A stretch of 64,000 bases of DNA, taken from contig NZ_CP043617.1 in assembly GCF_009258225.1 (NCBI RefSeq), positions 992,001 to 1,056,000 on the forward strand. Reading direction: 5' to 3'. Source of the stretch: Sulfurimonas lithotrophica (GTDB lineage: Bacteria > Campylobacterota > Campylobacteria > Campylobacterales > Sulfurimonadaceae). Below are positions 29,733 to 41,742 of this stretch, piece after piece (position 1 is the stretch's first letter; each line of letters starts with the position of its first letter). Position numbers and translations under genes: made by a program. The notes beneath the pieces are model-generated. The model was not told where the DNA came from, did no database searches, and saw only the letters and a program-made list of their open reading frames with translations.

Positions 29733-30866
29733 ATGGTAATAAAAAACGCAATGATTTGTGATGATGAGGGTTTACGTGAAGGTAACTTTACTATTGAAGA
29801 CAGAACAGACAATATTATAGATGCAAACGGTGCGTACCTAATCCCTGCTTTGGTTGATTTGAATGTTAGACTTAACGACGGTGTGTTAAACTCGCAAAAT
29901 ATCCAAGCAGTATCGCTTGAAGCTAAAAAAGGAGGTGTCGGTCATATAGTTTTAAACGCCGATTCAACACCTTCTATAGATAATGAAGGAATTTTAGAAT
30001 TTGCACAAAATGGACTCAGAGATGCAGAAGGCTCAAACGTAGATGTTATGTTAAATGCACTTCAAAACGACGGAAGTTTAAGTAATATCGCAATTCTTTT
30101 GAAAAAAGGTGCTATCAGTCCGTATATGAGCACTATAGCAAAAAACGACGTAGCTATAAAAATAGCCGAGTATATTCAAATGTATGGAAATACTTTGTTT
30201 GTAAAAGCTGAGGACAACTCACTTATAAGCAGCGGTGTTATGCTTGAGAGTGATGTAAGTTCTCGATTAGGACTTGCAGGCATACCTGATTTGAGTGAAG
30301 TTTTACATGTTAGTCGTATGATTGAGATAGCAAGACATTTTAAAATAAAAATACTTTTTAAATCCATAGCATCTCCTCGTTCAATCTCTTTGATAACACA
30401 AGCAAAAAAAGAGGGAGTAGAAGTTTCCTGTGAAGTGTCTCTTCATCATTTGATAAACTCAGATGAGGCTTGTGAAGGGTTTAATACGGTTGCGAAACTT
30501 GACCCGCCTCTTACATCCAAAAGCGATGTAGTTTTACTTCAAGATGCATTAAAAAACGGACAAATAGATATTTTGACTATGTTGCATCAGCCATCTTCCC
30601 CGGTAAATAAAGAAGTGGCGTTTTATGATGCCGCATACGGATGCGAATCTATAGCTGATGCACTCCCTCTTTACTATACAAAACTCGTAAAAACAGGTTT
30701 AATCTCCATGGAGAAACTTGTTGAGTTGGTCTCTTTAAATCCAGGAAATGTAGTGGGTACTAAAAAATCGTATATTCTTTTTAATCCTGAAGTGGAATCA
30801 ACAATAGATAATACCCAATCTCTTTATAACGGAGAAAATGTGTTTGGAGAGGTTATAAATCTATAA
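29733..30866 (+). CDS. Dihydroorotase-like protein lacking metal ligands (pseudoenzyme)
   Basis: 377 residues with the amidohydrolase fold of the multifunctional-type dihydroorotases: N-terminal beta sandwich (VIKNAMICDDEG), LIPALVDLNVRL, GGVGHIVLNADS, SSRLGLAGIPDLSEVLHVSR, EVSLHHLI and KLDPPLTSKSDV. The catalytic metal motif Asp-x-His-x-His is replaced by Asp42-Leu-Asn-Val-Arg46, and the TDHAPH motif by TMLHQPSS, so it should not hydrolyse dihydroorotate. In some bacteria such inactive homologues support aspartate transcarbamoylase; no pyrB is in this window. It precedes nagZ by 17 bases. Confidence 0.82.
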   Translation: MVIKNAMICDDEGLREGNFTIEDRTDNIIDANGAYLIPALVDLNVRLNDGVLNSQNIQAVSLEAKKGGVGHIVLNADSTPSIDNEGILEFAQNGLRDAEGSNVDVMLNALQNDGSLSNIAILLKKGAISPYMSTIAKNDVAIKIAEYIQMYGNTLFVKAEDNSLISSGVMLESDVSSRLGLAGIPDLSEVLHVSRMIEIARHFKIKILFKSIASPRSISLITQAKKEGVEVSCEVSLHHLINSDEACEGFNTVAKLDPPLTSKSDVVLLQDALKNGQIDILTMLHQPSSPVNKEVAFYDAAYGCESIADALPLYYTKLVKTGLISMEKLVELVSLNPGNVVGTKKSYILFNPEVESTIDNTQSLYNGENVFGEVINL

Positions 30867-30883: not shown

Positions 30884-31912
30884 GTGGATACAATAGAGTT
30901 AGAGTTAAAAAATAAAATCGCTAAGATGCTTATTGTAGGGTTTGATACTCTTAAAGCAGATAAAGAAGACTATATTTATAAGTGTATAAAAGAGTATAAA
31001 GTTGGTGGAGTTATACTTTTTGATAAATTTTATAATGATAGAGAAAAAGCTAAAAATATTAAAAATCCAGCACAATTAAAAAAATTGACGACCGAGCTTC
31101 AAAATATAAACAAAGAGAAACTTTTAATATCTATAGACCAAGAGGGCGGGCGTATAGCCAGACTTAAACAAGAAGATGGTTTTTCTAAAACTCTATCGGC
31201 AAAAGGACTTGCTTCTTTGGGTGAAGAAACTTCACGTAAGCATTATACATCCATTGCATCCGAGTTGCAAAACTTGGGTGTAAATGTTGACTTTGCACCA
31301 CTTGTAGATTTAGGTCTAAATAAAGAGAGTGACGTCATATACAAATTGGACAGGGCTTATGGTGATGATGCAGAAACAGTAAGTAAATATGCAGAGATAT
31401 TTATGGATGAACTGGCTAATCATAAAGTGATTAGCTGTCTTAAACATTTTCCCGGTCACGGTTCGGCTAAGGGTGATTCACACGAGGGTTTTGTAGATGC
31501 TACAACTACTTGGAGTGAACTAGAATTAGAACCGTATAAAAAACTTCTTTATAAAACCAAGATGATAATGACTGCACACGTTTTTAACAAAAATTTGGAT
31601 GATAAGTATCCAGCTACACTATCTTATAATACAAATACAAAGTTGCTTAGAGAAAAACTTGGGTATGACGGTGTAATTATAGGGGATGATTTACAGATGG
31701 GTGCTATAAAAGAGCACTACTCAAATGAAGAGGCATTAAAACTTAGCATAAACTCAGGAGTTGATTTAGTTATGTACTGTAATCAGCTAGGAGACGACAA
31801 GGCTGAAGATATTATAGATATTATCTATAAGCTTGTAATAAACGGCGAGATAGCACAAGAACGTATAGAAGAGTCAAATAAACGCATAGATAGACTTTTG
31901 AGTGAGATATAG
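30884..31912 (+). CDS. nagZ: Beta-N-acetylhexosaminidase NagZ (GH3)
   Basis: Cytosolic glycoside hydrolase that removes GlcNAc from GlcNAc-anhydroMurNAc (muro)peptides in peptidoglycan recycling. 342 residues; the family signature KHFPGHGSAKGDSHEG supplies the acid/base His-Asp dyad, and the nucleophile Asp lies in GVIIGDDLQMGAI; SIDQEGGRIARL binds GlcNAc. No signal peptide. GTG start, with AAGGAA eight bases upstream. First gene of the recycling operon that runs to 37458; the next ATG follows its stop directly. Confidence 0.93.
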   Translation: MDTIELELKNKIAKMLIVGFDTLKADKEDYIYKCIKEYKVGGVILFDKFYNDREKAKNIKNPAQLKKLTTELQNINKEKLLISIDQEGGRIARLKQEDGFSKTLSAKGLASLGEETSRKHYTSIASELQNLGVNVDFAPLVDLGLNKESDVIYKLDRAYGDDAETVSKYAEIFMDELANHKVISCLKHFPGHGSAKGDSHEGFVDATTTWSELELEPYKKLLYKTKMIMTAHVFNKNLDDKYPATLSYNTNTKLLREKLGYDGVIIGDDLQMGAIKEHYSNEEALKLSINSGVDLVMYCNQLGDDKAEDIIDIIYKLVINGEIAQERIEESNKRIDRLLSEI

Positions 31913-33397
31913 ATGCAAACGGGCTTTTCGTTTTATGACTGGTTGATATTTGCTTCATACTTTGCACTGCTTATTTTTGCATCTATCTTTTTAGCCAATA
32001 AAAATATGAAAAGCTCACGTGAATTTTTTGTAGCATCCAATGCTATGCCTATTTATGCCGTAGCTCTTTCACTTTTAGCTACAGCTCAATCAGCTGCAAC
32101 ATTTTTGGGTGCACCGGAGTTTTCTTACAGATACGACTTAACGCTTATAGGTTACTCTATAACCTCACTTTTGGCCATATATATAGTTTCAAAACTATTA
32201 GTACCTAGGTTTTATGCAATTAATGCACTTAGTGTGTATGAACTTTTAAAAACAAGGTATGATGAGAGTGCATCTAAGAGTGCAGGGATAATGTTTTTGG
32301 TAGGGCGTGTATTTGCATCGGGGGCTAGGCTTTATATAGCTGCCATTGCACTTAGTATGATTGTGTTTTATGAAGTGAGCTTTTACAGCGTAGTTTTAAG
32401 TGTGATTATTTTAATAATAGGTGCTTTGATTTTTACCTATTTCGGCGGTGTAAAATCAGTAATATACAGTGACATTATTCAGATAGTGGTATATCTTGGA
32501 GCCGGGATAGCGGTTCTTTTTTATCTGTATAGCTCTTTAGGTATGGATTTCTCTACTATAATGTCTAAGTTAAATGAAGCTCAAAAGCTAAAATTTGTAG
32601 ATTTTGAATTAAGTTTTTCAAATGAGGGGAAGTTTAATATCTTTGCTCTTCTAAGCGGATATATGCTTTTAAATATTGCCGCTTTTGGGCTTGATCAGGA
32701 CTTAACTCAAAGGGTACTCTCATGTAAAAATGAAAAACAGGCAAGTTTTTCTTTATACGGTGCTACACTTTTAAGCATACCGGTATCTATGTTGTTTTTA
32801 TCAATAGGTCTGCTTTTATATCTTTACTACCAAGAACATAGCATCTCACAAAAGTTTGAAGGACAGAGTGTTACGATTTTTATGTACTATATCTTAAATG
32901 AGATGCCTGAGGGTTTAAAAGGTTTTGTTACAATTGGGGCAATTGCCGCGGCACTCTCTAGTACAAACTCTGTTTTAGGTGCTATGAGCTCGGTCGCTAT
33001 TGAAGATATATATAAGCCTTTTAAATTAAAAAAAGATCCAAACACCAAAGAGTTGCATTTTGTAAAAATGGCAAAAATTATGGTGCTTTTATTTGCTTTG
33101 GCATTATCTGTTATGGCAATTTTGAGTTATATCGTCCACTCTATGAGTGAAGTTCCGCTTATAAGTTTTGCCCTTGGTGTAATGGCATATGCCTACAGCG
33201 GACTTTTAGGTGTTTTTGCCGCAGCCATATTTACTACAAGGGGTAACTCAAAGTTAGTCCCTTATGCACTTTTAGGTGGATTTTTGAGTGTTTTAAGTAT
33301 GCAAGGGTATACTTTTGGTTTTGATATAGGTTTCGCATGGCAATTAATGATAGGAACCTTTATCTCGTTTATTATTATGCAGATTGGGAAGGATTAA
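31913..33397 (+). CDS. Sodium:solute symporter (SSS family)
   Basis: 494-residue membrane transporter with about 13 spans of the LeuT-fold SSS family (GLUT-Na/sialic-acid/proline group). Conserved pieces are ATAQSAATFLGAPEFSY in TM1, GGVKSVIYSDIIQ, and the Na2-site helix AALSSTNSVLGAMSSVAIEDIY. The substrate is not predictable from these motifs alone. Its place between nagZ and anmK, sharing their transcript with no gap, suggests import of a peptidoglycan-derived sugar or muropeptide; AmpG, the usual importer in enterics, belongs to another family (MFS). Confidence 0.9.
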   Translation: MQTGFSFYDWLIFASYFALLIFASIFLANKNMKSSREFFVASNAMPIYAVALSLLATAQSAATFLGAPEFSYRYDLTLIGYSITSLLAIYIVSKLLVPRFYAINALSVYELLKTRYDESASKSAGIMFLVGRVFASGARLYIAAIALSMIVFYEVSFYSVVLSVIILIIGALIFTYFGGVKSVIYSDIIQIVVYLGAGIAVLFYLYSSLGMDFSTIMSKLNEAQKLKFVDFELSFSNEGKFNIFALLSGYMLLNIAAFGLDQDLTQRVLSCKNEKQASFSLYGATLLSIPVSMLFLSIGLLLYLYYQEHSISQKFEGQSVTIFMYYILNEMPEGLKGFVTIGAIAAALSSTNSVLGAMSSVAIEDIYKPFKLKKDPNTKELHFVKMAKIMVLLFALALSVMAILSYIVHSMSEVPLISFALGVMAYAYSGLLGVFAAAIFTTRGNSKLVPYALLGGFLSVLSMQGYTFGFDIGFAWQLMIGTFISFIIMQIGKD

Positions 33398-33399
33398 AA

Positions 33400-33825
33400 T
33401 TGTTATATTTGAGTGTTAAACTAATACATATTTTTTCGGTGTTTATTTACGGTGGGTTTCTTTTTACGGATAATCTTTTTTTGGCAAAAATGAAAAATGA
33501 TTTGAGCGATGATGAGCATAGTAAAGTTAGAGAATACTTTATGCAGTATGTTAGAAAGGTTGTGCCAAAAGCTCTTGTAGTAGCTGTTATAAGCGGTATA
33601 TACCTTTTACATGAAAATTTTGGAACTATTAGTGCTGATGGTCTTAGCAGTTTTCAAATTATGCTTGGGCTAAAAGCATTCTTGGGATTATGGCTTGGAG
33701 CTCGCGGAATTTTACAAGTGTTTTTCGGTATTCAGCCTTTTATTTTTAAAAGTCATTTAGTACCTTTTATACTCGTAATTATAATTATTTTCTTATCCCA
33801 GGCGATGCACTACGGGAGTTTTTAG
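33400..33825 (+). CDS. Unknown four-span membrane protein in recycling operon
   Basis: 141 residues, start TTG at 33400 supported by AAGGAT nine bases upstream and by a hydrophobic first helix (LYLSVKLIHIFSVFIYGGF). Four hydrophobic segments at about 2-20, 50-68, 80-100 and 112-132; conserved-looking His in the first (LIHIF) and the last (SQAMHYGSF) could bind haem as in CopD/cytochrome-b-like small proteins, but this is only a pattern. A longer reading from 33337 would overlap the symporter by 61 bases. Function unknown; co-translated with recycling genes. Confidence 0.75.
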   Translation: MLYLSVKLIHIFSVFIYGGFLFTDNLFLAKMKNDLSDDEHSKVREYFMQYVRKVVPKALVVAVISGIYLLHENFGTISADGLSSFQIMLGLKAFLGLWLGARGILQVFFGIQPFIFKSHLVPFILVIIIIFLSQAMHYGSF

Positions 33826-33853
33826 TTGATTTTTAAGTATTAAGAGGCAAGGT

Positions 33854-34945
33854 ATGAAAAAAGAATTGTACATCGGTGTTATGAGCGGAACAAGTTTGGA
33901 TGCCATAGATATATCACTGTGTGCAATAAACAAATCAAGCTTTAAAGTCGTTGCATCTAAAGAATATCCTTATGATGAAGAGTTAAAAGCAAGTGTACTT
34001 AAAATGATTTCTCAAAATATCTCTCTTAAAGAGTTCGGTGAAACAGATTATCGACTAGGTATGATGTATGTAGATGCAATAAGAAAGTTTTTAAAAGAAT
34101 TTTCACTAAATACCAAAAATATAACTGCAATAGGACTTCACGGTCAAACTATCTGGCATGAACCAAAATCTGACTATCCTTTTTCTTTACAAATCGGAAA
34201 TGCATCTTTAGTTGCCAAACAAACAGGAATAGATGTTGTAAGTGATTTTAGATCCGGAGATATAGCATTAGGCGGAGAAGGTGCTCCTTTTGCTCCCGTA
34301 TTTCATAAAGAGATGTTTAGCACTTTAGGTAAAAAAACAGCTATCTTAAACCTTGGCGGTATAGCCAACTTGACTATACTTCAAGGTGGTATGCTCGGTT
34401 ATGACTTAGGACCTGCAAATATACTTTTGGATATATGGATAAAAAAAAATAAAAATAAAAAATTTGACAAAGACTCAAAGTGGGCGAGAGAGGGCAGTGT
34501 TGATTTTGGATTGCTGAGCCGCTTTTTAGATGAAGATTTTTTTTCAAAAAAAGCACCCAAAAGTACAGGTAGAGAACTTTTTAATGAAGAGTGGCTGGAA
34601 CTTAAACTGACAAATTTTAGTACAAAAGCTCAAGATGTTCAAAGAACACTCTTAGAACTTAGTGTTTCTATAATCGCAAAAGAGGTTAAAAAGTATGAAA
34701 TAGAACTTCTTTTAGCTTGTGGAGGCGGAGCCAATAACGCTTATCTTATAGAATTGTTAGCCCAAAAGCTAGACGGCATAAAAGTATGTACTACTGATAA
34801 ATTCGGTGTTAACGGCGATTTTTTGGAAGCTATGGCTTTTGCATATTTTGCTTATAAAAGAATCTCTAATGAAGAGTTGCATCTAAAAAGTGTAACGGGT
34901 GCTTCGCGAAACGGGATTTTAGGGGCTGTATATGCAGCTGATTAA
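33854..34945 (+). CDS. anmK: Anhydro-N-acetylmuramic acid kinase
   Basis: Cytosolic kinase that opens the 1,6-anhydro ring of anhMurNAc while phosphorylating it to MurNAc-6-phosphate. 363 residues, ASKHA fold. Motifs: GVMSGTSLDAIDISL (phosphate-1), IGLHGQTIWHEP, FRSGDIALGGEGAPFAPVFH with the catalytic Asp, LNLGGIANLT, GYDLGPANILLD, and LLACGGGANNAYLI (adenosine). ATG supported by an AGAGGCAAGG site. Its last 14 bases overlap the next gene. Confidence 0.95.
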   Translation: MKKELYIGVMSGTSLDAIDISLCAINKSSFKVVASKEYPYDEELKASVLKMISQNISLKEFGETDYRLGMMYVDAIRKFLKEFSLNTKNITAIGLHGQTIWHEPKSDYPFSLQIGNASLVAKQTGIDVVSDFRSGDIALGGEGAPFAPVFHKEMFSTLGKKTAILNLGGIANLTILQGGMLGYDLGPANILLDIWIKKNKNKKFDKDSKWAREGSVDFGLLSRFLDEDFFSKKAPKSTGRELFNEEWLELKLTNFSTKAQDVQRTLLELSVSIIAKEVKKYEIELLLACGGGANNAYLIELLAQKLDGIKVCTTDKFGVNGDFLEAMAFAYFAYKRISNEELHLKSVTGASRNGILGAVYAAD

Positions 34946-35867
34946 AAAATTTTTAGCAAATAGCGTATATAAAGATTATGAAATACAAACAGCTTCTACC
35001 GATGCCAGCTTTAGAAGATACTTCCGTATAAGCAAAGATGAAAAAAGTTTTATCGTTATGGATTCGTCTTTAGAGAAGGAATCTTTAAAACCGTTTGTAG
35101 AGGTAACAAAAAAGCTCTTAAAAGCAGATGTGGATGCACCTAAAATATATTTTGAAAATTTAGAAGAGGGTTTTTTGGTTTTAGAAGATTTTGGTTCACA
35201 AGATCTTCTAAGCTCATTAAATAAAGATAATTTTAAAAAATATTATAAACTTGCTATAAACGAGATACTGAAGATGCAAAAGGCAGATACAAATGATTTG
35301 CCCATGTATGATGAAGTGTTTTTAAAAAAAGAGATGTCTTTGATGAAAGAATGGTTTATAGAAAAATTTATAAAAGACAAAAACTATGATACCGCTATGA
35401 TTGATGAAGCCCTAAATTATATAGCAAAAGAGGTTCTTTCTCAGCCGCAAGGATATTTCGTACATCGCGATTTTCACTCAAGAAATATAATGCTAAGAAG
35501 TGATGAGAGTCTTGGCGTTATTGATTATCAAGATGCAATGAATGGAAGCATCACTTATGATTTAGTTTCACTTTTAAGAGATTTATATATAAGATTTGAG
35601 CCAAATGATATAGAAGAGTTGGCTTTATATTTTAGAGATATTGCAGGTATAGATGCAAACGATAAAGAGTTTATGAGATGGTTTGATTTTATGGGTATGC
35701 AACGTCATATCAAGGTACTTGGAATATTTTCTAGGCTTTATCTGCGTGATGGCAAAGACGGCTATTTAAAAGATTTACCGCTAACGCTTCAGTATCTGTT
35801 GGAATCTGCATCCAAATATGACGAAACCTCAAAACTATACGGGTATTTAAAAACGATTAGATTATGA
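34932..35867 (+). CDS. amgK: Cell-wall sugar kinase AmgK-like (APH fold)
   Basis: 311-residue aminoglycoside-phosphotransferase-fold kinase. In Pseudomonas, AmgK phosphorylates MurNAc (or GlcNAc) at the anomeric position. Visible are ASTDASFRRYFRI at the N-terminus, the LVLEDFGSQDLL hinge, the catalytic loop VHRDFHSRNIML and the metal-binding VIDYQDAMNGSITYDL. Together with MurU, encoded next and overlapping by four bases, this defines the AmgK-MurU salvage route. A MurNAc-6-phosphate phosphatase (MupP) would be needed between AnmK and AmgK and is not in this operon. Confidence 0.88.
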   Translation: MQLIKKFLANSVYKDYEIQTASTDASFRRYFRISKDEKSFIVMDSSLEKESLKPFVEVTKKLLKADVDAPKIYFENLEEGFLVLEDFGSQDLLSSLNKDNFKKYYKLAINEILKMQKADTNDLPMYDEVFLKKEMSLMKEWFIEKFIKDKNYDTAMIDEALNYIAKEVLSQPQGYFVHRDFHSRNIMLRSDESLGVIDYQDAMNGSITYDLVSLLRDLYIRFEPNDIEELALYFRDIAGIDANDKEFMRWFDFMGMQRHIKVLGIFSRLYLRDGKDGYLKDLPLTLQYLLESASKYDETSKLYGYLKTIRL

Positions 35868-36505
35868 CAGCAATGATATTGGCAGCGGGACGCGGAGAAA
35901 GGATGCGTCCTTTGACGGATGAAAAACCAAAACCGCTTTTAGAAGTATCTCAAAAACCTCTTATAGAGTGGCATCTGGAAAAACTGGCACAGTGTGGATT
36001 TAAAAAAGTAGTTATAAATATAGCCCATTTAGGATATATGATACCAAAGAGGCTCGGCGATGGTTCAAAATGGGGTTTAGAGATATGCTACTCCGATGAG
36101 CAAGAAAGCGGAGCACTCGAGAGTGCAGGAGGAATCATAAAAGCATTACCTGAGCTTAGTGAAGAATTTTTGGTACTAAATGCGGATATATGGTGTGATT
36201 ACGAGTTTAAAAACGGTTTTAAATTAAATGGTAAGCTGGCACATTTGATACTTGTAGAAAATCCAGAACATAATCCAAAGGGTGACTTTGAATATAAGGG
36301 TTTAAAATATACTTTTTCAGGAATAGGGTACTATTCTAAGAAAATGTTTGAAAATATGAAAGTAAAGAAGCTGGCATTAGCACCGATTTTAATACAAAAC
36401 ATAGCTAAAAATAAAATCAGCTTTGAAATTCATAAGGGAATATGGATGGATATCGGTACTGTGCAAAGATTAAAAAAGGTGAATAAACTATGCAATTTAA
36501 AATAA
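35864..36505 (+). CDS. murU: N-acetylmuramate-1-phosphate uridylyltransferase MurU
   Basis: Nucleotidyltransferase of 213 residues that converts MurNAc-1-phosphate to UDP-MurNAc in the salvage route. The N-terminal MILAAGRGERMRPLTDEKPKPLLEV carries the pyrophosphorylase signature (first twenty residues shown in part), then VINIAHLGYMI, LNADIWCDY (metal-binding Asp) and WMDIGTVQRL. Length and context (ATGA overlap with amgK) fit MurU rather than RmlA or mannose-1-phosphate guanylyltransferases. It overlaps the next gene by 16 bases. Confidence 0.88.
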   Translation: MTAMILAAGRGERMRPLTDEKPKPLLEVSQKPLIEWHLEKLAQCGFKKVVINIAHLGYMIPKRLGDGSKWGLEICYSDEQESGALESAGGIIKALPELSEEFLVLNADIWCDYEFKNGFKLNGKLAHLILVENPEHNPKGDFEYKGLKYTFSGIGYYSKKMFENMKVKKLALAPILIQNIAKNKISFEIHKGIWMDIGTVQRLKKVNKLCNLK

Positions 36506-37458
36506 TAATATTAATTTTTTTAACAACTACGTTATCGGCTAAATATACAAACTGTGATTTTAAAAACGAGCATTATACGGATATTTGTAAAAAAGTTGTA
36601 AAAAGTGGAGTAAGTTACGATTATGTAAACAGATTTTTACTTTCACATTTCAAAACAAAAAGGTTTGATGAAGTATCTTGGAAATATCTTCAGCCAAGAC
36701 ATATTAAAACACATAAAAAAAATGAAAAAAAAGCAAATAACTCATTAGTTTCTTCAATACCTAAAATAGTAAAACATCTAAAAAAGTATAAAGAAGTTTA
36801 TGACTATACAGAAAAAAAGTACGGAGTAAACCGTGAGGTTGTAGCTTCCATACTTATGAAAGAAACAAGTCTTGGAAAACTAAAACCAAAACATGATGCT
36901 TTTATAGTGTTTAACACTATAGTAAAAAGGATAAATCCTAAAACAAACAGACAAAAATGGTTGCTAAAAATGGGAAAATCAAATATGGCATCTATAATAA
37001 AGCATTGTTACAAAAAAGATGTAGAACCAGAAGAGTGTAACTTGCCAAGCTCATATGCAGGGGCTGTCGGAATTCCGCAATTTATGCCTGAAAATTTTAA
37101 ATATGCGAAAAGTTACTGTGAAGGCGAAATTTGCGATCTGACGAAAATGGAAGATGCCATAGTAAGTGCGAGTTATTTTTTACACAAACGTGCAAAATAT
37201 AAAAAACTTATTGACTGGGATAAAATCCCTAATATGGAAAAAATTGAAGCCGATTGGTATGAGTTTGAATATAATAACCAATATGCATCGTTTTCTTACA
37301 AAAAAAATAGAAACGGCAGAGTCTATAAGTGTTATGTCTGCGGGAAAAAAGATTTACAATATTTAGATATATACATAAAGAAAGTCCTAAAATATAATAA
37401 CTCCTCAAATTACGCAGTAGGTGTTATGAGACTGGCATACGATACACATTATTTTTAA
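36490..37458 (+). CDS. MltB-type lytic murein transglycosylase
   Basis: 322 residues with a signal peptide (IIILIFLTTTLSA). Cleaves peptidoglycan glycan strands forming 1,6-anhydroMurNAc ends. The catalytic Glu is in ILMKETSLGK and the SLT_2 family block SSYAGAVGIPQFMPENF follows; AVGVMRLAYDTHYF ends the protein. Four additional Cys (CDFKNEHYTDIC, CYVCGKK) and a CxxC-like pair are unusual for the family and may stabilise the secreted form. Last gene of the operon, providing substrate for NagZ and AnmK. Confidence 0.88.
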   Translation: MQFKIIILIFLTTTLSAKYTNCDFKNEHYTDICKKVVKSGVSYDYVNRFLLSHFKTKRFDEVSWKYLQPRHIKTHKKNEKKANNSLVSSIPKIVKHLKKYKEVYDYTEKKYGVNREVVASILMKETSLGKLKPKHDAFIVFNTIVKRINPKTNRQKWLLKMGKSNMASIIKHCYKKDVEPEECNLPSSYAGAVGIPQFMPENFKYAKSYCEGEICDLTKMEDAIVSASYFLHKRAKYKKLIDWDKIPNMEKIEADWYEFEYNNQYASFSYKKNRNGRVYKCYVCGKKDLQYLDIYIKKVLKYNNSSNYAVGVMRLAYDTHYF

Positions 37459-37521: not shown

Positions 37522-38430
37522 ATGAATTTAAGACTTTTAATAATATTTGCTTTACAGTTATATTTATACTCTCAGCCGATAATGCCGCTTCCTCTTAGCA
37601 TCTCCGTAGATGAAAAAAAAGCTCAACTCGGTAAGGAACTATTTTTTGATACTATCCTCTCTTTAGATAACAGTGTATCTTGTGCAACGTGTCACGACAT
37701 AGAAAAAGGCGGTGATGACGGGTTGGTTTTTTCTATCGGAATAAATGGAAGACAAGGGGATATAAATGCTCCTACGGTTTTTAATTCTATATATAATTTC
37801 AGACAATTTTGGAACGGAAGAGCAAAGGACTTAAAAGAGCAGGCAAAGGGTCCTATTGAGAATCCTTTAGAGATGGGAAATAATTTTGGAAATTTGATAG
37901 AGGTATTAAGTAATACTCCATATAGAAAAAGATTCAACGCCTTGTATAAAGACGGTATTACTGCAGATAATATAGCAGATGCGATAGCTGAATACGAAAA
38001 AACATTAATAACTCCGGAGTCTGCGTTTGATAAATATTTAAACGGTGATGAAGATGCTATAACTAAAGAGCAAAAAGAGGGTTATGAAGTTTTTAAAGAT
38101 GTTGGTTGCATAACATGTCATCATGGAATTAACATAGGTGGAAATTTATATAATAAATTCGGTGTTATAGAATCTGCAACATCTAAACGTAAAGGTAGAT
38201 ACGAAGTCACACAGAATAAAGAAGATATTTATTATTTTAAAGTGCCCTCACTGAGGAACATAGAAAAAACTGCACCTTATTTGCATGACGGAAGATACGA
38301 TAAACTAGAAGACGTAGTGAAGTTTATGTCTAAATATCAACTGGGTCGTGCTATTACGGATACAGAGATAGATAAAATAGTAAAATTTTTACATTCGCTA
38401 AGCGGTAAGATACCTCAAGGGATAGAGTAG
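37522..38430 (+). CDS. Dihaem cytochrome c peroxidase family protein
   Basis: 302-residue periplasmic CcpA/MauG-family protein with a signal peptide (LRLLIIFALQLYLYS). Two haem sites: SCATCHD (N-terminal, peroxidatic) and GCITCHHG (C-terminal, electron transfer). Family blocks are LGKELFFDTILS, the NAPTVFNSIYNFRQFWNGRA stretch, and KVPSLRNIEKTAPYLHDGR. Probably reduces H2O2 with electrons from small cytochromes, though MauG-like protein oxidation is possible. Slightly shorter than the usual 320-350. Six bases upstream of the PAS-GGDEF-EAL gene. Confidence 0.9.
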   Translation: MNLRLLIIFALQLYLYSQPIMPLPLSISVDEKKAQLGKELFFDTILSLDNSVSCATCHDIEKGGDDGLVFSIGINGRQGDINAPTVFNSIYNFRQFWNGRAKDLKEQAKGPIENPLEMGNNFGNLIEVLSNTPYRKRFNALYKDGITADNIADAIAEYEKTLITPESAFDKYLNGDEDAITKEQKEGYEVFKDVGCITCHHGINIGGNLYNKFGVIESATSKRKGRYEVTQNKEDIYYFKVPSLRNIEKTAPYLHDGRYDKLEDVVKFMSKYQLGRAITDTEIDKIVKFLHSLSGKIPQGIE

Positions 38431-38436
38431 TTTAGT

Positions 38437-40938
38437 ATGAATAAGTTTGAAAATTTTACTACAAAAAATAAAACAGATACTGTATATGTACTGATAATAT
38501 TTTTTATAGTTTTGATATCTGCTTTATCTTTGTATTTGATTAGAGCCAACAGCATTATACAAAGTGATACTGAATATAAAAAAATCATCTCTGAACTGCA
38601 TATATTAAATAAGGGTTTTGATAATTTCTTTTTAAAATCCACTACATTTAATAATTATGACCTTATAAATAAAAATATTAAAGACTTTGAAGAAAAACTT
38701 GAAATATTATCGACAAAAAATAAAAATACAGTATTTAAAGATAAATATAACGATTTATTAAACAGATTAAAAAATGACTTTAAGGATAAAAAAAATGTTA
38801 TTGAGTCCTTTAAATCCGAAAATGCTCTTTTAATAAGTTCTATACATTATCTCAATAAGTTAAATGAACTTGTTTCAAAAGAAAGACTACTGGATAAAAA
38901 AGATATAGATTTGATGCAAAAAACTTTATCCGATATTATGCTTTATTATATAAATACATCATTTCTTAGTAAAAATATATCTGCAAATGTAAAATACTTT
39001 TCCAATCTGCATGAAAAAAACAAACTAAACGAGTTAAAAATGTTTATAGCTCATGCAAATAAAAGCATACAAAGAATAGACAAGTTATCTAAAATAAAAA
39101 ATAAAAAATATTTTTTAAACGATTCAATCAAAAACTTGGAACTCTTTTTGAATAAAAAATTTACAAATGCTATATACAACGGACGTATAGTAGTTGTAGT
39201 ACTTTTGATTATTGCATTTTTCTTTTTAGCTGCTTTGCTTATCATGTATAAACGCACACTAAAAGTAAAAGATGATTTAATAAGTTTTACAACGGCGGTA
39301 GAAAATAGCTATAACTCTATTGTTATTACAGATGCCGAGAAAAATATTATATATGTGAACGATATTGTTTTAAAAGAAACCGGTTATGAAAAACATGAAC
39401 TCTTAGGGCAAAATCCAAGGATTTTAAAATCAGGAGATAAATCTGATGAGTTTTATCAAGAGATGCATAAATCTCTTGATAAAGGAAATCGTTGGGAAGG
39501 CGAGTTTATAAATAAACGTAAAGACGGAACGGAGTTTTACGAAAAAGCTTCAATATTACCGATATTTCAAGATTCAAAGTTGGTTAATTATCTTGCCGTT
39601 AAATTAAATATTACCGATTACATTATTCAACAACAAAAAGTTAAACATATGGCATACCACGACTCTTTGACGTCATTGCCAAACAGAACAAACGTAGAAG
39701 AGTATCTAGAAATTAATTTACCGATTGCCAAAAGAAACAATCATAAGATTGCTATTTTGTTTATTGATATAGATAATTTTAAAACTATTAACGATACTTT
39801 AGGACACGACGTCGGAGATGACTTTATAAAAGAGTGTGCTAAAATGCTCAGAAGCGTACTTAGAAAATCGGATATATTGGCACGTATAGGCGGTGACGAA
39901 TTTTTAATAATTTTAGAATCCATAGATACAAACTACAGTGCAGCAGATGTCAGTACCAAGATAATCGATATGTTTCAAAAACCAATTGATGTAAAAAACA
40001 ATAAATTGACCTTAACTCTAAGTATCGGAATATCTATTTTTCCTAACGATGCAGATAACTATATCACTTTATTTAAATGTGCAGACATGGCTTTATACAA
40101 AGCAAAAGAAAGCGGAAAAAATAATTTTCAATATTACAAGAAAAAATTGTCCGTAAATATGCATGGTAGGTTAAATATAGAACAGGCTCTAAAAGGTGCT
40201 TTAAAAAAAGATGAAATTTTTCTTGTATATCAGCCAAAATATAATATTGCTTCAAAAGAGATTGTAGGTTTTGAGACTTTGGCAAGATGGGAAAACGAAA
40301 AATTAGGGCTTATTCCTCCGGATAAGTTTATTACTATAGCTGAGAGTACAAACGATATTTTAGAAATCGGTTTGTTTATTTTTAAAAAAGCATGTATAGA
40401 TTTTAAAGACTTTAGAGAGATAAACACAAATCTTCAAACTATATCTATAAATATCTCTACCGTTCAGCTATACCAAGATAGTTTTATCAAAGATATTATG
40501 AATATAATAGATGAAGTCGGAATTGAAGCAAGCTCAATAATTCTTGAAATCACAGAGACACATATTATGAAAAATATTTTTTATAGCATGAGAGTTCTAA
40601 ATGAACTAAAAACTCTTGGATTTAGCGTGTCTATAGATGATTTTGGGACAGGTTATTCCTCTCTTAATTATTTAAAACAGCTTCCGATTAACGAACTCAA
40701 AATAGATAAATCTTTTATAAATGATTTACCGTATGATTTAAATGATGTAGCTATATCTAAAGCGATTATATCACTCTCAAAAAATATGGGTTATGTAAAC
40801 GTAGCAGAAGGTATAGAGACTACAGAACAAGAGGAGTTTTTATTAAGCGGCGGATGTGAAATAGGTCAGGGTTATCTGTTTTGTAAACCAAAGATAAAAG
40901 ATGAGATAATTCAAATACTAAGAGATAAAACCCCTTAA
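38437..40938 (+). CDS. Membrane sensor with PAS, GGDEF and EAL domains
   Basis: 833 residues: TM1 at about 14-36, a periplasmic helical sensor of about 210 residues, TM2 at about 249-271, a PAS domain (VIKNIIYVNDI type, about 280-400), GGDEF at 405-565 and EAL at 580-830. The GGDEF loop is intact (ARIGGDEFLIIL) with an upstream inhibitory I-site RKSD. The EAL domain has ETL in place of EAL but keeps the metal-binding acids (NIST, EITETH, SIDDFGTGYSS, VAEGIET), so both synthesis and hydrolysis of c-di-GMP are possible. Likely cotranscribed with the peroxidase gene. Confidence 0.93.
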   Translation: MNKFENFTTKNKTDTVYVLIIFFIVLISALSLYLIRANSIIQSDTEYKKIISELHILNKGFDNFFLKSTTFNNYDLINKNIKDFEEKLEILSTKNKNTVFKDKYNDLLNRLKNDFKDKKNVIESFKSENALLISSIHYLNKLNELVSKERLLDKKDIDLMQKTLSDIMLYYINTSFLSKNISANVKYFSNLHEKNKLNELKMFIAHANKSIQRIDKLSKIKNKKYFLNDSIKNLELFLNKKFTNAIYNGRIVVVVLLIIAFFFLAALLIMYKRTLKVKDDLISFTTAVENSYNSIVITDAEKNIIYVNDIVLKETGYEKHELLGQNPRILKSGDKSDEFYQEMHKSLDKGNRWEGEFINKRKDGTEFYEKASILPIFQDSKLVNYLAVKLNITDYIIQQQKVKHMAYHDSLTSLPNRTNVEEYLEINLPIAKRNNHKIAILFIDIDNFKTINDTLGHDVGDDFIKECAKMLRSVLRKSDILARIGGDEFLIILESIDTNYSAADVSTKIIDMFQKPIDVKNNKLTLTLSIGISIFPNDADNYITLFKCADMALYKAKESGKNNFQYYKKKLSVNMHGRLNIEQALKGALKKDEIFLVYQPKYNIASKEIVGFETLARWENEKLGLIPPDKFITIAESTNDILEIGLFIFKKACIDFKDFREINTNLQTISINISTVQLYQDSFIKDIMNIIDEVGIEASSIILEITETHIMKNIFYSMRVLNELKTLGFSVSIDDFGTGYSSLNYLKQLPINELKIDKSFINDLPYDLNDVAISKAIISLSKNMGYVNVAEGIETTEQEEFLLSGGCEIGQGYLFCKPKIKDEIIQILRDKTP

Positions 40939-41742
40939 GTATTTTGCAACTGCATCTTCATCGTTTGAATGTTTTGATATATATGTAGCTATCTTTTTTA
41001 CGTCTTTATGAGCATTTGCGACGGCTACCGATGTTCCGGCTAATTCAAACATCCCTATATCGTTTAGATTGTCTCCAAACACCGTATAATGTTTAAAGTC
41101 TATGTTTAGGTATTCATTTACTTTTTTAAGACCGTGTGCCTTATCTGCATCTGCATGAAGCAGTGTAAGAAAATAACAATCCATGTAGGCTTCAGGTGCG
41201 AGTATATACTTTAGTGAATTTCCAAAAGTTTTATATAGTTCATTTTTTAAAATTAACAATTCATCTTCATCGCCCATATATACCAGTTTAAAGTTATCTT
41301 TCATAGCACGAATGTTTGATTTTTCTTCTAAGTTGTCATCACCTATATATCTGTCTAATAAACGGTGCTGATAATCATTTCTCTCTTTTGGGTATAAAAA
41401 TGCTTCATTTAGGTTTTTATCTTTTAGTGCCAGCACAAAGGGAAAAAGATTATGTTTAGAACCAAGTTCAATAATAGCATCTGCCATATCTTTTTCTATG
41501 ATTTTCATATCTATTATTTTTTTATCTTCACTTACAATAAGCGAACCGTCAAGTAAAATCATAGGTGCATTTATATTTAGACCATCTAAAAACTGTTCTG
41601 TTTTTTTAAATGTTCTTGCAGTAGCTACCGAGAGAGTACTTTTTAAAGACAAAGAGTTCCAAGTATCTTTTGTAAACTCACTTACACTTAAATCACTTCT
41701 TAAAAAAGTGTGGTCTAAATCAGTTATAAAAACTTTACCCAT
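40918..41742 (-). CDS. HAD-superfamily phosphatase, Cof type (IIB)
   Basis: 274-residue cytosolic hydrolase. Motif I is FITDLDHTFLRSD (DxDxT variant DLDHT), motif II is SVATARTF, and the C-terminal motif IV is VFGDNLNDIGMFELAG, with SVAVANAHKDVKK following. The C2B cap lies between. Substrates of this class are sugar phosphates, nucleotides or PLP and are not predictable. The ATG follows the tgt stop directly, so it is co-expressed with tgt; its end overlaps the GGDEF-EAL gene on the other strand by 21 bases. Confidence 0.88.
   Translation of the reverse strand: MGKVFITDLDHTFLRSDLSVSEFTKDTWNSLSLKSTLSVATARTFKKTEQFLDGLNINAPMILLDGSLIVSEDKKIIDMKIIEKDMADAIIELGSKHNLFPFVLALKDKNLNEAFLYPKERNDYQHRLLDRYIGDDNLEEKSNIRAMKDNFKLVYMGDEDELLILKNELYKTFGNSLKYILAPEAYMDCYFLTLLHADADKAHGLKKVNEYLNIDFKHYTVFGDNLNDIGMFELAGTSVAVANAHKDVKKIATYISKHSNDEDAVAKYLRGFIS

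Follow-up and report, generated by a model that had tools for sequence, protein, structure and literature searches.

Bacteria that carry AnmK, the kinase for 1,6-anhydro-N-acetylmuramic acid (anhMurNAc), and are free of the permease AmpG raise the question of how the anhydro sugar enters the cell; Rhodothermus marinus is one example (PMC6987092). We encountered the same question in a muropeptide salvage operon at positions 30884-37458 of a 64,000-nt stretch of the Sulfurimonas lithotrophica contig NZ_CP043617.1 (hereafter the window; genome of 2.4 Mb, 99.99% complete), which contains a gene for a sodium:solute symporter (SSS). We consider it probable that this organism and its relatives recycle peptidoglycan without AmpG and that the SSS protein imports a peptide-free muramic sugar. 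Behind this stand gene content and order, co-occurrence, the lack of detectable AmpG, MurQ or MupP, and sodium-site residues; all transport and enzyme activities, as well as the cargo, are predicted from sequence.

The salvage operon and its conservation

The operon comprises the following genes, all on the + strand:

30884 to 31912, +: nagZ, GH3 beta-N-acetylglucosaminidase (PF00933, E = 1.8e-60; GTG start, without signal peptide)
31913 to 33397, +: SSS-family symporter, proposed Na+-coupled importer of a peptide-free anhydromuramic sugar (PF00474, E = 4e-31)
33337 to 33825, +: small membrane open reading frame (ORF), 162 amino acids (no Pfam or NCBIfam match)
33854 to 34945, +: anmK, anhydro-MurNAc kinase (PF03702, E = 4e-124; NF007139, 442 bits against a cut-off of 367)
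34932 to 35867, +: amgK, N-acetylmuramic acid (MurNAc)/N-acetylglucosamine (GlcNAc) anomeric kinase (NF045759, E = 6e-70, 235.9 bits, cut-off 550)
35864 to 36505, +: murU, MurNAc-1-phosphate uridylyltransferase (NF045761, 265.6 bits against a cut-off of 250)
36490 to 37458, +: MltB/SLT_2-type lytic transglycosylase, probably exported (PF13406, E = 8.5e-28; hydrophobic, signal-peptide-like N terminus)

An earlier reading of the window (the sequence-only reading) had described NagZ, AnmK, AmgK, MurU and a lytic transglycosylase with a symporter placed inside, and these genes and their order were confirmed. Its statement that the genes overlap by 0-16 bases holds for most junctions: nagZ and the symporter gene abut, and the overlaps are 14 nt for anmK/amgK, 4 nt for amgK/murU and 16 nt for murU and the transglycosylase gene. 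It does not hold for the 456-nt interval between the symporter gene and anmK, the only loose junction, which contains the previously overlooked 162-amino-acid ORF. The true start of this ORF is probably near the symporter stop codon. Among the relatives, a homologue (141 amino acids, beginning just past the symporter stop) was found in locus L048 only, and we therefore do not regard the ORF as a conserved operon component. A scan for promoters and terminators yielded signals that were not clearly in excess over shuffled sequences.

A genome-wide search for ampG and mupP, as the sequence-only reading had proposed, recovered neither: the AmpG model TIGR00901 had no match in the S. lithotrophica genome even at E ≤ 1, and the best MupP score among its HAD_2 proteins was 92 against a cut-off of 359. 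No AmpG was found over the cut-off in a comparison set of 298 Campylobacterota genomes. AmpG-like matches in 22 of these genomes were all far under the cut-off and none fell in a genome with AnmK, a non-overlap that was not significant (p 0.11). MurQ was likewise not found over the cut-off in the 27 genomes with AnmK (best score 36 bits against 302; 25.7 bits in S. lithotrophica).

Within the comparison set, the symporter (counted at ≥52% identity) was present in 26 genomes and AnmK in 27, with AnmK in 26/26 symporter genomes and the symporter in 26/27 AnmK genomes. The proposed co-occurrence check with anmK thus returned a near-perfect match. The exception, AnmK-positive G284, has a fragmented assembly, with anmK starting approximately 0.7 kb from a contig end. 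Symporter and AnmK genes lay less than 10 kb apart in 24/26 genomes, and AnmK, AmgK and MurU were encoded at one locus in 27/27. The operon arrangement recurred in all 16 AnmK-positive genomes of the window's family, with nagZ ahead of the symporter gene in 16/16 family genomes that have the symporter, and a second family (f4) has a modified version; because of this recurrence, the arrangement is far beyond chance. In an AnmK-negative genome, G254, nagZ abuts the lytic transglycosylase gene, and the block of symporter, anmK, amgK and murU is missing as a unit (L134, G254:C10:117500-120500). With AnmK in only 27 of 298 genomes and a transporter clade shared with alphaproteobacteria (see below), the earlier description of the system as one of Campylobacterota is not supported.

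Two local variations were seen at this locus. One relative (G288) has, near the operon, what appears to be the remnant of a duplication, a C-terminal piece of an additional symporter (approximately 104 residues, L080:8907-9209), and four others (L050-L053) have a gene for a KPN_02809-family zinc metallopeptidase inserted between amgK and murU.

The symporter clade and its alphaproteobacterial members

The window symporter scored 108.8 bits against PF00474 (gathering threshold 22.8); SSF was its only Pfam match, and its top fold matches were SSS proteins. Both by sequence and by fold, the nearest solved structure was SiaT, the sialic acid symporter of Proteus mirabilis (5nv9/5nva; TM score 0.78, with 23% identity over the fold alignment). 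In SiaT, Ser60 and Thr63 are carboxylate ligands, Arg135 and Gln82 belong to the substrate site, and Ser342/Ser343 to the Na2 sodium site (PMC5931594). S60 and T63 are invariant in the clade and common to its Campylobacterota and alphaproteobacterial proteins. At the Na2 site, the window protein has S349/S350, positions kept as S/T in Campylobacterota, and SiaT Asp182 also has a counterpart. Thus, the two proteins share family, fold, Na2 site and Ser60/Thr63, and differ in the Arg135 and Gln82 positions and in gene context (PMC5931594).

A tblastn search of plasmids identified symporters of the same clade in Sphingomonadales at 39-41% identity. A tree separated the Campylobacterota and alphaproteobacterial proteins, as one clade supported at 100/100, from SiaT and the other SSS proteins included; branches beyond this clade were long. 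The evidence for linkage in alphaproteobacteria comes from four plasmid loci, all of which encode a TonB-dependent receptor and MurQ near the symporter, and three of which also encode AnmK. In Novosphingobium, a MurNAc catabolic cluster is completed by NagA, D-lactate dehydrogenase and a SIS-domain protein. The element common to the Campylobacterota and Sphingomonadales contexts is the handling of (anhydro)MurNAc, so that two separate genomic contexts point to the same kind of cargo. A Kordiimonadaceae homologue (L057) of the same clade has no recycling genes nearby and was not counted as recycling-linked. In three of the Sphingomonadales loci (L139:4032-5995, L138 and L140), a gene for a PP2C-like protein directly precedes anmK, with a one-base overlap in L139.

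The Sphingomonadales clusters, with their TonB-dependent receptor, MurQ, NagA and D-lactate dehydrogenase, resemble nutrient uptake. This raises the alternative that the Campylobacterota operon, too, serves chiefly to collect muramic sugars of foreign or environmental origin, for nutrition or as precursors of the wall, and not to recycle those of the cell's own wall, the cargo being the same. However, Campylobacterota lack MurQ over the cut-off and have no recurrent TonB receptor gene beside the operon; moreover, AmgK and MurU would rebuild UDP-MurNAc, and the operon includes its own transglycosylase. We therefore judge scavenging as the main role to be unlikely.

Location of NagZ and the amidase, and the likely cargo

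If the symporter carries a peptide-free sugar, its exact cargo would depend on what is removed before import. In the window, nagZ has an in-frame stop four codons upstream of its GTG start and encodes no signal peptide, and the same absence was seen in L048, the locus of the closest relative. By contrast, a signal-peptide-like N terminus was present in all 29 relatives with a complete NagZ start (18 + 11). In many relatives, NagZ is fused to a C-terminal Amidase_2 (AmpD-fold) domain, giving a protein of approximately 560 amino acids; such fusions behind a signal-peptide-like N terminus occur in nine Campylobacterota genomes (for example, L058:7012-8697). An exported fusion of this kind could strip both GlcNAc and peptide as a single protein. 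The second family (f4) instead encodes a separate, probably exported amidase directly upstream of the symporter. An amidase was found in 26/26 symporter genomes: fused to NagZ in nine, directly upstream of the symporter in nine and elsewhere in eight. The S. lithotrophica genome has a single Amidase_2 gene (C1:2003244) that is far from the operon and encodes a hydrophobic, signal-peptide-like N terminus.

Since exported NagZ and amidase would remove peptide and GlcNAc before import, the natural cargo in most relatives is likely anhMurNAc. In the window's lineage, where NagZ is predicted to be cytoplasmic, the symporter would probably import the disaccharide GlcNAc-anhMurNAc, which would be cleaved inside the cell.

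Changes in the symporter itself are compatible with this difference. Of the alignment columns, 262 were conserved in 33 relatives; at 17 of them, the window and L048 have a residue seen in no other sequence, and four of the 17 coincide with the ten SiaT contact positions (S58A, F81Y, Y82S and W250Y), an enrichment with p 0.002 (0.003 when all 494 positions serve as background), calculated post hoc for one branch. Three of these substitutions (S to A, Y to S and W to Y) shorten or shrink the side chain. The window and L048 are the only two sequences with a cytoplasmic NagZ and the only two with the four pocket changes; their sister L049 has an exported NagZ and the usual pocket residues. This suggests that the pocket changes fit a shift from mono- to disaccharide cargo in the window's lineage, and makes the window and L049 transporters a natural pair for studying how an SSS pocket might move from one sugar to two.

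NagZ would also free GlcNAc, and SSS proteins carry many sugars, so the symporter might import GlcNAc or another neutral amino sugar and not a muramic sugar. AmgK also phosphorylates GlcNAc, and its NCBIfam name is N-acetylmuramate/N-acetylglucosamine kinase. Yet seven relatives have their own GlcNAc carrier, a NagP-like permease encoded just downstream of the operon, by which GlcNAc released by NagZ would enter (a search of the major facilitator superfamily (MFS) loci of the S. lithotrophica genome recovered no NagP). In alphaproteobacteria, the clade is associated with MurQ, an enzyme whose substrate is MurNAc-6-phosphate, and Ser60/Thr63, which hold the carboxylate in SiaT, are invariant. 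Import of a neutral amino sugar is thus quite improbable.

The location of the amidase bears on another route, in which an Opp/Yej-type ATP-binding cassette (ABC) transporter imports muropeptides and the SSS protein serves some other purpose. There is precedent in YejBEF-YepA, which takes the place of AmpG in Rhizobiales and Rhodobacterales (PMC9790009), and the S. lithotrophica genome encodes an Opp-type ABC family-5 binding protein that could carry muropeptides. However, the binding-protein gene is unlinked to the operon, and the SSS protein is kept and lost together with AnmK. The sole Amidase_2 protein has a signal-peptide-like N terminus, so that the cytoplasm would offer no AmpD of this family to process imported fragments still carrying peptide. 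We regard this route as very improbable.

The binding protein nevertheless counts among several points that weigh against import of a muramic sugar by the symporter. SiaT Arg135 and Gln82 are not conserved, being A135 and S82 in the window, although the clade has its own invariant R132/R139, common to Campylobacterota and alphaproteobacteria and located about one helical turn either side of position 135. The AlphaFold model (10 sequences) had a mean predicted local distance difference test score (pLDDT) of 71, with the pocket helix at residues 41-77 below 50; because it is unreliable in this helix, we make no docking claim. Signal peptides were judged by eye. AmgK is a putative assignment, its best model, NF045759, matching at a score under the curated cut-off, with amgK placed between anmK and murU in all 27 AnmK-positive genomes. 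Lastly, Fisher p-values for co-occurrence were very small, but the genomes share ancestry and their independence is overstated; the pattern within the window's genus, in which 14 AnmK-positive genomes all have the symporter and a Cof-type HAD phosphatase and four AnmK-negative genomes have neither, and the block absence in G254 therefore weigh more.

On balance, the earlier proposal that the SSS protein stands in AmpG's place and imports GlcNAc-anhMurNAc or anhMurNAc is favoured by the undetectable AmpG, the reciprocal co-occurrence, the missing block in G254, the MurQ/AnmK context in Sphingomonadales and the retained Na2 residues.

A putative phosphatase and the predicted pathway

The operon had also been called complete and self-contained. 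It contains neither a MurNAc-6-phosphate phosphatase nor an amidase, the amidase being encoded elsewhere in the genome, and a phosphatase candidate lies outside it, 3.5 kb downstream:

40918 to 41742, -: HAD-IIB phosphatase of the Cof type, a candidate for the MurNAc-6-phosphate step and not orthologous to MupP (PF08282, E = 1.5e-45)

This gene was found in 27/27 AnmK-positive genomes and in 0/4 AnmK-negative genomes of the window's genus, and in 19/27 its distance from anmK was no more than 17 kb. AnmK-positive genomes encode versions at least 49% identical to the window protein; in the 25 other genomes with a match, identity was at most 49%. It is most likely the missing phosphatase, the best candidate by these criteria, and would represent a second kind of MurNAc-6-phosphate phosphatase; given the neighbouring NagP in some genomes, it may have a GlcNAc-related role. 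A HAD_2 protein (G000:C1:1057334, L119) was rejected as MupP: it is closest to phosphoglycolate phosphatase and occurs in 197/298 genomes, including AnmK-negative ones, and is thus unspecific.

In the predicted pathway, the exported lytic transglycosylase would free 1,6-anhydro-muropeptides in the periplasm, and the exported AmpD-fold amidase would strip the peptide. In most relatives, exported NagZ, often fused to the amidase, would then strip GlcNAc to give anhMurNAc. The SSS protein would bring in the sugar acid with Na+, AnmK would convert it to MurNAc-6-phosphate, the Cof-type HAD phosphatase to MurNAc, and AmgK and MurU to UDP-MurNAc. A broader proposal is more tentative, and its parts may well not all hold: that members of the SSS clade, in two phyla, are Na+-coupled permeases dedicated to anhydro-muramic sugars, that loss of the NagZ signal peptide in the window's lineage came with a switch of cargo in which GlcNAc-anhMurNAc replaced anhMurNAc, and that the phosphatase is of the Cof type (HAD-IIB), a different HAD subclass from MupP.

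This pathway combines features of several known systems. With the anabolic recycling of Pseudomonas (AmpG, NagZ, AmpD, AnmK, MupP, AmgK and MurU) it shares NagZ, AnmK, MurU and, by prediction, AmgK and the direct formation of UDP-MurNAc; it differs in that AmpG, MupP and a cytoplasmic AmpD-type amidase were not found, the predicted importer is an SSS protein, the amidase appears to be exported and so does NagZ in nearly all relatives (PMC5371407). The MurQ etherase that characterizes the catabolic recycling of E. coli was not found over the cut-off in the 27 AnmK-positive genomes. Bacillus subtilis salvages with extracellular NagZ and AmiE, the phosphotransferase system (PTS) transporter MurP, and MurQ, and most relatives resemble it in placing NagZ and amidase outside the cytoplasm and in importing a monosaccharide, as predicted; here, however, the sugars would be anhydro forms, the importer SSS and not PTS, the enzymes AnmK-AmgK-MurU and not MurQ, and the bacteria are Gram-negative (PMC5061867). 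The window itself, like L048, lacks the exported NagZ of B. subtilis; the S. lithotrophica genome encodes a putatively exported amidase. R. marinus is also AmpG-free, with cytoplasmic AnmK and, as in most window relatives, an exported NagZ; there, NagZ is fused to a beta-lactamase domain instead of an amidase, and the importer was not identified (PMC6987092). The SSS clade offers a concrete, testable answer to how the anhydro sugar enters such cells.

Two further transporters can be compared. Agrobacterium YejBEF-YepA likewise stands in for AmpG, but as an ABC transporter (PMC9790009). Tannerella forsythia MurT is similar in mediating non-PTS import of MurNAc from an operon with MurNAc-handling enzymes. 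It has been assigned both to the sodium symporter superfamily (introduction) and to the MFS (discussion) in one report (PMC5790795), and described as distantly related to NagX in another (PMC9007349). AmpG is present in T. forsythia and AnmK is not predicted there (PMC7670621), and the window symporter, with SSF as sole match, shows no relation to the NagX/HGSNAT-like family (PF07786). Searches of the open-access literature yielded no SSS protein described as such a peptidoglycan-sugar importer, with the reservation that MurT may count as an earlier description of an SSS MurNAc carrier.

Two genes flank the operon. Directly downstream, at 37522-38430, lies a gene for a MauG/MbnH-type di-haem cytochrome c peroxidase, which has the same position in L048. 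Upstream of nagZ, 29733-30866 encodes a protein resembling dihydroorotase (match to NF006268 under the cut-off, none in Pfam) that is possibly a non-functional PyrC paralogue.

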